From assembly GCF_014641495.1 (NCBI RefSeq), contig NZ_BMHV01000018.1, forward strand, positions 1-64,000: a stretch of DNA of 64,000 nucleotides, read 5' to 3'. Position 1 is the first letter of the stretch; each line of letters starts with the position of its first letter. A model generated the notes under the pieces. It saw nothing but the letters and a program-made list of their open reading frames with translations, did no database searches and was not told the DNA's origin. The stretch is from Terasakiella brassicae (GTDB lineage Bacteria; Pseudomonadota; Alphaproteobacteria; Rhodospirillales; Terasakiellaceae). Below are positions 44,067 to 50,391 of this stretch, piece by piece. The position numbers were made by a program, and so were the translations under genes.

Positions 44067-44726
44067 TTGACCGATCAATTGCAAGTACGCCTGAAAGAAA
44101 TTGCCAAGGAATGCGGTGGCAATCGCGCCCTTTGTGAAAAATCAGGCGTATCCGAACGCACATTCGCCAACTGGTTGGCCGGATCAAGCGAACCCAAAAT
44201 TATCGGTATCGCCGCAATCGCCCAGGCCGCAGGCGTTACAATCGACTGGCTTGTCACAGGGGCCAAACCCAAACAACCACTTGGCACACGTGTCGACGAC
44301 ACCTTTGCCATTGTTCATGTTCCGGTCATCAGCAAGGACTTGAAAGAGTCTGACAAATCCTTCAACGAACGGCTGGTCTTGCAAAACCATATGCCTTTTT
44401 CGAAATCTTTTCTCGAAGAACGTCTGGGACATCAGGAATTTGATCAACTCTGTCTTTTCAAAGTTCATGGCGATTCAATGGATTACACCATGAGTAGCGG
44501 GGATTACGTTCTTGTTGACCGTGCCCAGACCAAACTTGAAGACGGCATCTATGCCTTTATCTTTAAAGACCAGATTAACATCAAGCGGATTATCAACATT
44601 ATAGACGGGGTTGAGGTTATCAGCGACAATCAAGCCCTTTATCCGCCCTATCTTATCAAAAACAATCACCTTCATCAGATGCAGGTTATCGGACGCGCGC
44701 TGTGGGTCGGAAAAAACATTCCCTAA
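44067..44726 (+). CDS. CI-type repressor with S24 peptidase domain
   Basis: A 219-residue phage-type repressor. The N-terminal HTH at about 5-65 (LKEIAKECGGNRALCEKSGVSERTFANWLAGSSEPKI) binds DNA. The C-terminal LexA/CI-like S24 domain has catalytic Ser137 in FKVHGDSMDYTMSSGDYVLVDR and the likely general-base Lys173 in INIKRI, so RecA-stimulated self-cleavage is possible. It starts at TTG 44067 behind GGGAG. It is divergent from a Ner-like gene. No other phage genes are near, so it may be a domesticated SOS-responsive regulator. Confidence 0.88.
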   Translation: MTDQLQVRLKEIAKECGGNRALCEKSGVSERTFANWLAGSSEPKIIGIAAIAQAAGVTIDWLVTGAKPKQPLGTRVDDTFAIVHVPVISKDLKESDKSFNERLVLQNHMPFSKSFLEERLGHQEFDQLCLFKVHGDSMDYTMSSGDYVLVDRAQTKLEDGIYAFIFKDQINIKRIINIIDGVEVISDNQALYPPYLIKNNHLHQMQVIGRALWVGKNIP

Positions 44727-47194: not shown

Positions 47195-48643
47195 TCACTT
47201 TTTGAAAGGCGGCAGTCCCGGTGGCAAGCCACCCTGTCCACCCAGACCATCCAGTCCGGGCAAACCGTTGAGCCCACCCGGCGGCATCGCGCCCCCCGGT
47301 CCACCCATCATGCCGCCCAATTTGCCGAGCAGGCCTTTTTTATTCATCTTTCCGACTTTTTTCATGACGGTTGCCGTTTGCTGATATTGTTTCAGCAACT
47401 TGTTCACGTCCTGAACTGTGAGGCCGCAGCCTGCCGCGATACGCTGGCGGCGCGATGCCTTGATAATCTTGGGATTTTGACGCTCTTTTACCGTCATGGA
47501 TAGAATGATTGCTTGTTGGCGGGCAATCATCTTGTCGTCCACCTTGGCTTCGGCCAGTTGTTTTTTCATCTTGCCGATACCGGGCAACATACCCAGCAAT
47601 CCGTCCACATCACCCATCTTGCGAATTTGATTGAGCTGTTCCAGCATATCTTCCAGCGTGAACAAGCCTTTCATAACCCGTTTGGCTAAGGCTTCGGCCT
47701 TATCCTGTTCGATGGTTTCCTGTGCTTTTTCCACCAACGAGACCACATCGCCCATACCGAGGATACGACCAGCCACACGATCTGCGTGGAAAGCTTCCAA
47801 CTCGTTAATTTTTTCACCGACACCCATCACCTTGATCGGTGCGCCGGTGACTTCTTTCATGGACAAGGCCGCACCACCGCGCGCATCGCCGTCCACACGG
47901 GTCAGGGCAATACCGGTAATGCCGATCTTGTCATTAAATTCCTTGGCAACATTGACAGAATCCTGCCCGGTCATGGCATCCGTAACCAACAGGGTTTCCG
48001 CCGGGTTGGCAACGTCACGAACCTGTGCGACTTCATCCATCAGTTTTTCATCAATATGCAGACGACCTGCCGTATCGAGGATAACCACGTCATAACCGCC
48101 CTTACGGGCCTCAACCATCGCACGTTTGGCAATGGCAACCGGTTGTTCGCCAAAGACGATCGGCAACGAGTTCAACTCCGCCTGTTTGGCGAGGACCTCA
48201 AGCTGCTGCTGAGCGGCCGGGCGATAAACATCAAGGCTGGCCAGCAAAACTTTTTTGCGCTCTTTCTTCTTGAGCATCAGACCGATTTTGGCAGAGGTGG
48301 TTGTTTTACCCGCACCTTGCAGACCAACCATCAAAATCGCAACCGGGGGAACGGCCTTCAGATTAATCGCCGTATCATCCGAACCCAGCATTTCAACCAT
48401 GCAGTCATGCACGATCTTAATGACCATCTGGCCCGGATTAATCCCTTTCAAGACTTCTTCGCCAATTGCCTTTTCTTTAGCTTTTTTGACAAAATCTTTC
48501 ACAACCGACAGGGCAACATCGGCTTCCAGCAAAGCAACGCGTACTTCGCGCATCGCCTCGCTAACGTCAGACTCAGACAATGAGCCACGTTTTGTGAGTT
48601 TATCAAAAATGCCGCCAAGGCGACTCTGAAGACTTTCAAACAT
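47195..48643 (-). CDS. ffh: Signal recognition particle protein Ffh
   Basis: The SRP GTPase that binds signal sequences of nascent membrane proteins and docks at FtsY. It has 482 residues from the ATG at 48643. The N domain starts MFESLQSRLGGIFDKLTKRGSLSE; the G domain has GLQGAGKTTTSAKIG, DTAGRLHID and TRVDGDARGGAAL. The M domain has the RNA-binding RRQRIAAGCGLTVQDVNKLLKQY and ends in a Gly/Pro-rich tail. It is the first gene of the ribosome-biogenesis operon. Confidence 0.98.
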   Translation of the reverse strand: MFESLQSRLGGIFDKLTKRGSLSESDVSEAMREVRVALLEADVALSVVKDFVKKAKEKAIGEEVLKGINPGQMVIKIVHDCMVEMLGSDDTAINLKAVPPVAILMVGLQGAGKTTTSAKIGLMLKKKERKKVLLASLDVYRPAAQQQLEVLAKQAELNSLPIVFGEQPVAIAKRAMVEARKGGYDVVILDTAGRLHIDEKLMDEVAQVRDVANPAETLLVTDAMTGQDSVNVAKEFNDKIGITGIALTRVDGDARGGAALSMKEVTGAPIKVMGVGEKINELEAFHADRVAGRILGMGDVVSLVEKAQETIEQDKAEALAKRVMKGLFTLEDMLEQLNQIRKMGDVDGLLGMLPGIGKMKKQLAEAKVDDKMIARQQAIILSMTVKERQNPKIIKASRRQRIAAGCGLTVQDVNKLLKQYQQTATVMKKVGKMNKKGLLGKLGGMMGGPGGAMPPGGLNGLPGLDGLGGQGGLPPGLPPFKK

Positions 48644-48833
48644 ATTAAATCCCAACGCAAAACGCGCCAGTGCCCGATACTCGAGGACTGGCGGCACCCC
48701 TTAAGGTGACAATAATGTCAAAGAGGCCTGTGAATTTGGCGCTGTTCTACTGGCTTTCAAACACAGAGTCAAGCAAAAGCGGACTTGTCTTGAAACCAAA
48801 AGATGAGTAGGTTGCGAGTCTTGGAAATTCAAT

Positions 48834-49571
48834 ATGGATAGCGATATGCTGTATTTCGTCGCCTTGCTTCTTTCTGTCGTCGCTGCACAAAGCACTTATG
48901 CCGCAGACGATATACGGGATTACGCGGAATTTCAGGCATTCCATGCCGAGAAAACCATTCAGGCAATTGATCTGGCATTGCTGGATGCCAGCGAACTGAT
49001 TGAGCGCAACCCAGAGGCGGAAGAACTGGTTTTGCACACCACATTGGCAAAATATGTTGAACGCACACCGGGCTTGCGCGCCATCATCTCAACAAACCGC
49101 ACGGGTCAATTAAAGATCGACAGCTTTACCTATCCGGCAAAAGACATTGATTTGTCGGATCGCGAATATGTCAAAACGGTCCTCAACGCCGAGGAACGCG
49201 ACTTATATATTGGTTCCCCGCTGGTCGGACGATCTTCCGGCGCAGCCTTTGTTCCCTTCGCGCGCGCTTTGCTGGATTCTGATAAAAAAGCCCTCGGTGC
49301 CATTGCCGGCATTATCCATCCCGGTTTTTTGATTAAACAAGATGCATTATGTCCGCAATGTATTGTCAGCCTGTTCAATGATCGCAATGAAGTCTTGGTC
49401 AGCTACCCCTCCAATACCCACTACCCCGGGGACTTTATTGAAAAAATCAACGCGTTAAATACGAATGGCGAACTGAATGGGACAATTAATGAGCATAAAA
49501 TTCAAACCTGGGTTATTATATTAAAAAAATACAATGTTCGCGTCAGCGTCAGCAAGTTCGCGAATAAATAA
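48834..49571 (+). CDS. Secreted stand-alone Cache-like protein with CxxC (copy 1)
   Basis: A 245-residue protein. The N-terminus (LYFVALLLSVVAAQSTYA) is a signal peptide that lacks positive residues; ATG 48846 is an alternative start. Residues 30-165 look like a PDC/Cache sensor domain: KIDSFTYPAKDIDLSDREYVKTVLNAEERDLYIGSPLVGRSSG, then RALLDSDKKALGAIAGI. These normally form the outer part of diguanylate cyclases and chemoreceptors, but here nothing follows. A CPQC pair (173, 176) is conserved in the next gene. Function unknown; perhaps a periplasmic sensor partner. Confidence 0.78.
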   Translation: MDSDMLYFVALLLSVVAAQSTYAADDIRDYAEFQAFHAEKTIQAIDLALLDASELIERNPEAEELVLHTTLAKYVERTPGLRAIISTNRTGQLKIDSFTYPAKDIDLSDREYVKTVLNAEERDLYIGSPLVGRSSGAAFVPFARALLDSDKKALGAIAGIIHPGFLIKQDALCPQCIVSLFNDRNEVLVSYPSNTHYPGDFIEKINALNTNGELNGTINEHKIQTWVIILKKYNVRVSVSKFANK

Positions 49572-49656
49572 TAATTTTATTCCAATAAGTTCGCTATGAT
49601 TGTGTTCTACGTTACGTACTGATATGGTTGCCTCGGTTTCTTCTTAGAGTGGTCTA

Positions 49657-50391
49657 ATGGTGCGTTTTTTCCTTCTAACCTTGATGTTTCTGTTCAGTGG
49701 CGTTCATGCATACGCCAATATGGACAGGGAACTCAAGTTATCTGCGCTTTATCAAGCTGTTCATGCCCAAGGCCTGTTGCGTTCTGTCGATATTACATTG
49801 GTCGGGATCACCAGCCTGTTCAGCCACAAAGAAACCAGCGCCATTAACGACCTGATCATTCATAATTCCCTGAACCGCCATGTTGAGCGCGTTCCCGGTC
49901 TCAGCGCCTTGTTCACCACAGATGTGAATGGCAACCTGAAACATGACAGCTTTCGCTATCCGACCCGCGCGTTGGATCTGAAAGATCGCGCCTATATCAA
50001 CAATGCATTGCGTTTAACCAGTAACGAGCTTTATATCGGTGAACCGATTAAAAACGCCATTGTCGCCTATGACAGCTTGCCCCTGTCGCGCCCGATCTTT
50101 AATGATCAAGGTTACATCACCGGTGTCGGTGTGGCGATTATGACGCCGGACCATTTATTGCAACGGACCAAAATCTGTAAAAAATGTGTGGTCTCTATTT
50201 TCAAGACCAACGGCACAAAGATCGTCAGCTTTCCGGCTGCCGTTCAGGCCCAGCCCGACATTCAGAAATTTATGGCGGATCATCCGGACAACACCATTGT
50301 TGATATCCCCATCAACAAACTGCCGACCCTGACCGTCTGGACACAAATTGCAGATTACAATCTCGTCCTGCTGTATTCTTACTTCAAATAA
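49657..50391 (+). CDS. Secreted stand-alone Cache-like protein with CxxC (copy 2)
   Basis: A 244-residue paralogue of the preceding gene. The signal peptide is VRFFLLTLMFLFSGVHAYA. Shared landmarks are HVERVPGLSALFTT, HDSFRYPTRALDLKDRAYINNAL, LYIGEP and KICKKCVVSIF (Cys174, Cys177). It is less like canonical Cache in the middle (the VGRSSG segment is missing). It lies 86 bp behind copy 1 and shows the same gene direction, so tandem duplication with divergence is likely. It ends 9 bp before the convergent lpxL-type gene. Confidence 0.78.
   Translation: MVRFFLLTLMFLFSGVHAYANMDRELKLSALYQAVHAQGLLRSVDITLVGITSLFSHKETSAINDLIIHNSLNRHVERVPGLSALFTTDVNGNLKHDSFRYPTRALDLKDRAYINNALRLTSNELYIGEPIKNAIVAYDSLPLSRPIFNDQGYITGVGVAIMTPDHLLQRTKICKKCVVSIFKTNGTKIVSFPAAVQAQPDIQKFMADHPDNTIVDIPINKLPTLTVWTQIADYNLVLLYSYFK

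Follow-up and report, generated by a model that had tools for sequence, protein, structure and literature searches.

Two open reading frames lie in tandem on the + strand of the 64,000-nucleotide stretch of Terasakiella brassicae DNA analysed here (the window), with groups of - strand genes on both sides, and we confirmed both at the coordinates given in Table 1. A preliminary description of this DNA had read them as two diverged copies of a secreted Cache-like protein, and the two products, Cache1 and Cache2, indeed align over 165 residues with 32% identity (E 5e-35). Both proteins begin with a hydrophobic segment, after which comes an A-x-A site resembling those cut by signal peptidase I (TYA in Cache1 and AYA in Cache2). 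This export signal, called from hydropathy and rule rather than by SignalP, agrees with the proposed secretion and suggests that the proteins reside in the periplasm. Hydropathy revealed no convincing second membrane segment in either protein, and neither has anything C-terminal to the domain. Receptors of the dCache_1 type have a membrane helix next to the domain and an output domain in the cytoplasm; Cache1 and Cache2, at 244-245 aa, have neither and carry only the N-terminal export signal. As had been claimed, no output domain is encoded.

Table 1. Features of the Cache locus and its flank in the window.
Feature	Coordinates	Strand	Description
Cache1 (P0001, 245 aa)	48834..49571	+	signal peptide and stand-alone dCache, paralogue a
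Cache2 (P0002, 244 aa)	49657..50391	+	signal peptide and stand-alone dCache, paralogue b
Cache1 predicted signal peptide	48834..48902	+	cleavage after TYA, residue 23; A-x-A rule and inspection
Cache2 predicted signal peptide	49657..49716	+	cleavage after AYA, residue 20; hydropathy/rule and inspection
Cache1 CPQC codons (Cys173, Cys176)	49350..49361	+	start of membrane-proximal Cache subdomain
Cache2 CKKC codons (Cys174, Cys177)	50176..50187	+	
ffh (SRP54)	47195..48697	-	flanking gene

At the level of Pfam, both Cache proteins match dCache_1 (PF02743) weakly, at 20.4 bits against a gathering cut-off of 45, and 15 of 17 family members match this model at E<=0.1. Structure prediction had been proposed as a check on the fold. 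An AlphaFold model of Cache1, built with ten sequences from the genus, reached a mean pLDDT of 89.3 and a pTM of 0.83, and its best solved matches were dCache sensor domains, led by 3lif (Z 24.0, rmsd 2.2, 227 residues), with the alignment spanning both Cache subdomains. Because the model matches dCache sensor structures, 3lif first, the earlier assignment of a Cache fold is right, and, as modelled, Cache1 is a full dCache fold. The 3lif protein, rpHK1S-Z16 of Rhodopseudomonas palustris, shares with Cache1 and Cache2 the whole fold, detectable sequence similarity and the DRxY motif. By contrast, it serves as the sensor region of a diguanylate cyclase in the membrane, whereas Cache1 and Cache2 have neither a membrane helix after the domain nor an output domain, and their cysteine pair is an addition relative to 3lif.

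No superfamily of extracellular sensors in prokaryotes is larger than that of the Cache domains (PMC4822843), and in more than 90% of cases a Cache domain is taken to be the input part of a signalling protein to which it is fused (PMC12889525). The statement in the preliminary description that Cache domains are normally fused needs qualifying, since stand-alone versions are already known: nearly half of the sCache_heme (DUF3365) domains are free, with redox-related roles proposed for them (PMC12889525), and 52 dCache_1 proteins have no other known domain (PMC7584622).

A homology search for stand-alone relatives and their neighbours, another of the proposed checks, found them in 20 alphaproteobacterial genomes, mostly in a compact four-gene cluster. 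All six genomes of the window's genus carry one or two stand-alone Cache genes beside ffh, which flanks the locus throughout the genus and was not found beside Cache outside it among the loci compared. Seven further genomes of the order, from two other families, encode a stand-alone Cache at E about 1e-44 to 1e-50; the other matches listed in the order were much weaker and lay mostly in frames of 550-1200 aa, and those inspected were sensor kinases and similar receptors. In another order of the class, stand-alone Cache genes are present in 7/7 genomes of one genus, one of which (G700) has two. We built a tree from 19 stand-alone sequences, 33 receptor domains and one fragment. The 19 stand-alone sequences form a single clade (support 99/97) apart from the receptor Cache domains; L028, which nothing but its length had marked as stand-alone, groups with the receptors and is probably a fragment. 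Paralogues a and b arose within the genus, and the window carries one of each.

The dN/dS values of near pairs of Cache genes were 0.03-0.24, which indicates that these genes are under purifying selection and are being maintained; the gene pair is not a product of chance. Besides the cysteines discussed below, G91, D96, P101, R110, Y112, P141, P163 and P192 are invariant or nearly so (n=25 proteins). Because an output module is the usual fusion partner of Cache domains (PMC12889525), the two genes could be relics, that is, decaying receptor genes that no longer have an output domain. However, the single old clade, the purifying selection, the invariant residues, the signal peptides of their own and the conserved partner genes make such decay extremely unlikely. 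A prophage origin was rejected on finding no Cache match to phage records. So was a plasmid origin: the plasmid matches were distant and mostly annotated as kinases or a cyclase, and one unannotated match from Caballeronia gave no sensible stand-alone ORF.

The cysteine pair lies where it had been described, CPQC at residues 173-176 of Cache1 and CKKC at residues 174-177 of Cache2 both directly preceding the strand. Both cysteines are invariant in all 17 homologues of the order and in 25/25 proteins when the other order is added. The claim of a conserved CxxC thus stands for the cysteines but not for their strict spacing, which is C-x2-C in the window's order and C-x3-C or C-x6-C in the genus of the other order. 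The preliminary description had named the lack of a Cache fold, or a CxxC unconserved in orthologues, as grounds against itself; we found neither.

It had also suggested that the proteins might be redox sensors. Reversible oxidation of the cysteine pair could switch the Cache conformation and report the periplasmic redox state to a membrane partner, and this idea is consistent with the invariance of the pair in the 25 proteins and with its presence at this place in only one of the 40 long receptor sequences examined (L095, as CxxC). However, the spacing of 2, 3 or 6 residues is unlike that of redox CxxC motifs, which is fixed, the fold is not thioredoxin-like, and the one receptor that carries CxxC at the same place is a kinase. 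Moreover, extracytoplasmic cysteine pairs are usually permanent disulfides. These points weaken the redox proposal, which we now regard as improbable. Because the spacing varies and a receptor kinase shares the motif, a structural disulfide suits the pair better than a redox CxxC; it would staple a loop where the proximal Cache subdomain begins. The L095 sequence itself is a 617-aa minus-strand frame from another family that encodes a full-length sensor histidine kinase, in which SCTDCSYTLIS carries the CxxC (CTDC).

Two further roles for the cysteines were rejected. A thioredoxin-like role would call for a thioredoxin fold with a fixed CxxC, but the fold differs and the spacing is variable. 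Binding of heme c was rejected since the residue after the second cysteine is I, V, F, L or G in 25/25 proteins and never His. Similar to the Cache1/Cache2 family, the sCache_heme (DUF3365) proteins, such as Tll0287, are extracytoplasmic Cache proteins, often without an output domain, with two conserved cysteines (PMC12889525). They differ in having a single Cache domain and a covalent-heme CXXCH, whereas the family described here has a double Cache, a spacing of 2, 3 or 6 and no His in the next position.

The Cache gene is near, and convergent with, a gene for a membrane protein of ~120 residues at all 12 other loci of the order, and at 11 of these 12 the cluster also includes a GNAT acetyltransferase and an XRE-type HTH protein. 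The Cache gene is convergent with the membrane-protein gene, which is divergent from the GNAT gene, which in turn is convergent with the XRE gene; in G003, GNAT is on the opposite side of the Cache genes. Genes outside this four-gene cluster vary between families. The same four genes are found around seven of the eight Cache genes in the genus of the other order; at the eighth (L110), the membrane protein and GNAT are present, and XRE was not found within the short locus. G700 has the module in two diverged copies (L107 and L110), in both of which Cache, membrane protein and GNAT are present. At 16 of 20 loci, the 3' end of the Cache gene overlaps that of the membrane-protein gene. In G292 (L072), the two genes overlap tail to tail, and there GNAT and XRE are absent from the locus and the GNAT subfamily has no match anywhere in the genome. 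In the window's genome, the Cache pair sits beside ffh, and the genes for the membrane protein, GNAT and XRE form a group on contig C26 (L077:6069-7586) that has no Cache gene. Since these three genes are still present there, all four have been kept in this genome even though their linkage is broken.

Directly in front of the XRE gene, G001 has a 9-bp inverted repeat, GCAAATATA...TATATTTGC, and G005 a near-identical copy (L064, L068); the repeat is a candidate autoregulatory operator. Inspecting upstream regions by eye, we found no convincing operator common to the Cache and the membrane-protein/GNAT promoters. The window also contains a TTG-started ORF (44067-44726, +) that adjoins rplS and encodes a CI-like HTH repressor protein, the HTH of which weakly resembles the XRE protein of the module.

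In the membrane protein, a basic N-terminal stretch precedes a single hydrophobic helix, and three helices make up a C-terminal domain. By the positive-inside rule, the protein is predicted to be bitopic, with its N terminus inside and the three-helix domain in the periplasm. No Pfam or NCBIfam model matches it above cut-off, and its fold gave no significant Foldseek match in the PDB, a result that does not in itself prove a new fold. Its distribution follows that of the stand-alone Cache: of the 317 genomes of the order, 13 have both and none has only one, and of the 40 genomes of the other-order family, 7 have both and again none is discordant, counts in which the genomes are not independent samples. 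In a sample of 385 genomes of the class, the membrane protein was detected only in the same three genomes as the stand-alone Cache; three further Cache matches at E<=1e-20 were long receptor-type frames. As Cache is present in only 6 of the 29 genomes of genus g29, this correspondence is not mere lineage-wide presence, and linkage by common descent accounts for part of it. The GNAT subfamily is present in 12 of the 13 Cache genomes of the order, with E values of 1e-86 or better (the next best match was 1e-27).

The GNAT gene adjoins the XRE gene, and one explanation is a toxin-antitoxin-like or other conflict module, in which GNAT would be the toxin, XRE the antitoxin, and Cache and the membrane protein accessory sensors. 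The patchy distribution in genus g29 and weak matches of the HTH to antitoxin models point the same way. However, GNAT and XRE are convergent and form no operon, PADLOC matches nothing but the HTH itself, phage records contain no Cache match, and the membrane protein stays with Cache in G292, where GNAT and XRE are missing. We consider a conflict module very unlikely. A defence system was rejected on the same PADLOC result.

Some clues bear on what the Cache domain may bind. R110 and Y112, part of the DRxY motif usual for Cache pockets, are conserved in the family. The family profile matches two PDB sequences only, 3lif (rpHK1S-Z16; E 1.4e-15) and 4jgo (KinD). Both of these proteins bind AI-2, with Kd values of 0.18 and 0.14 uM, respectively, and are activated by it, and they do so without the five PctA-type pocket residues R126, W128, Y144, D146 and D173 (PMC7584622). 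luxS is absent from the window's genome, as holds for bacteria that detect AI-2 but do not produce it.

It is possible that the free Cache protein serves in periplasmic binding or buffering, delivering a metabolite (for example, autoinducer-2, an amine or a carboxylate) to an ordinary membrane receptor or sequestering it, with the neighbouring genes processing or regulating but relaying no Cache signal. The export signal, the lack of an output domain, the conserved core of the dCache pocket (D96, R110 and Y112), the absence of luxS and the reported AI-2 binding by the sole two PDB matches (PMC7584622) would all be consistent with such a function. However, AI-2 binding is common among the dCache_1 domains tested, which makes the parallel weak, and a binding or buffering protein does not explain why Cache and the bitopic membrane protein occur together so strictly, nor why XRE and GNAT are present. 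We judge this function to be rather unlikely. AI-2 would be a cheap first candidate ligand, from which we draw no conclusion.

The most economical reading of the observed fold, export signal, cysteine conservation, gene cluster and co-occurrence is that of a split sensor. The Cache pair may supply the periplasmic sensor of a split signalling module whose other members are the 120-residue bitopic inner-membrane protein, the GNAT acetyltransferase and the XRE-type regulator, a proposal that we favour tentatively and put at a little under an even chance. Against it weigh the missing family and fold matches of the membrane protein, the lack of an operator that inspection by eye could show to be common to Cache and the other genes, the share of common descent in the co-occurrence, and G292 with its locus free of GNAT and XRE. 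In the distal Cache pocket, a small ligand would bind near Asp96 and Arg110, both invariant, and Tyr112, which is nearly so, and the occupied Cache protein, its proximal domain held by the cysteine staple, would then dock on the part of the bitopic protein that projects into the periplasm. The bitopic protein would carry the signal across the membrane, changing XRE-controlled expression, GNAT activity or both; here we infer the docking, the direction and path of the signal, and its output. In the window's genome, the Cache gene is duplicated and lies physically apart from the other three genes of the module. Of the earlier suggestion that the proteins are soluble ligand-binding partners of a distant receptor, the first part fits, but the best candidate partner is the small bitopic membrane protein, in most loci encoded tail-to-tail with Cache, rather than a distant receptor.

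LuxP-LuxQ is a sensor made of a periplasmic binding protein and a membrane partner. Similar to LuxP, the Cache proteins would be free in the periplasm and might signal the presence of a small ligand to a partner in the membrane; the fold, however, is that of periplasmic binding proteins in LuxP and Cache here, and the partner here is a 120-residue bitopic protein without a kinase domain. Neither this dCache family nor the module was found in the open literature that we searched, in agreement with the original statement that no described system of this form was known, and the same search returned no description of the combination of Cache, bitopic protein, GNAT and XRE. A free Cache is itself already known; what sets this family apart is a double Cache, with no heme motif, tied to a small bitopic protein, GNAT and XRE.

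The four-gene cluster looks like an undescribed split signalling system. That a free dCache signals through a 120-residue single-pass protein to XRE and GNAT, without a kinase, cyclase or chemoreceptor, and so represents a new form of trans-envelope signalling, is a bolder claim that we think possible but on the unlikely side. If true, it would couple Cache sensing to transcription, or to the acetylation of proteins or small molecules. A lineage whose sensor is free and never occurs without one particular small membrane protein would reveal how Cache domains can sense in trans, and the cluster offers a compact gene set for testing this.
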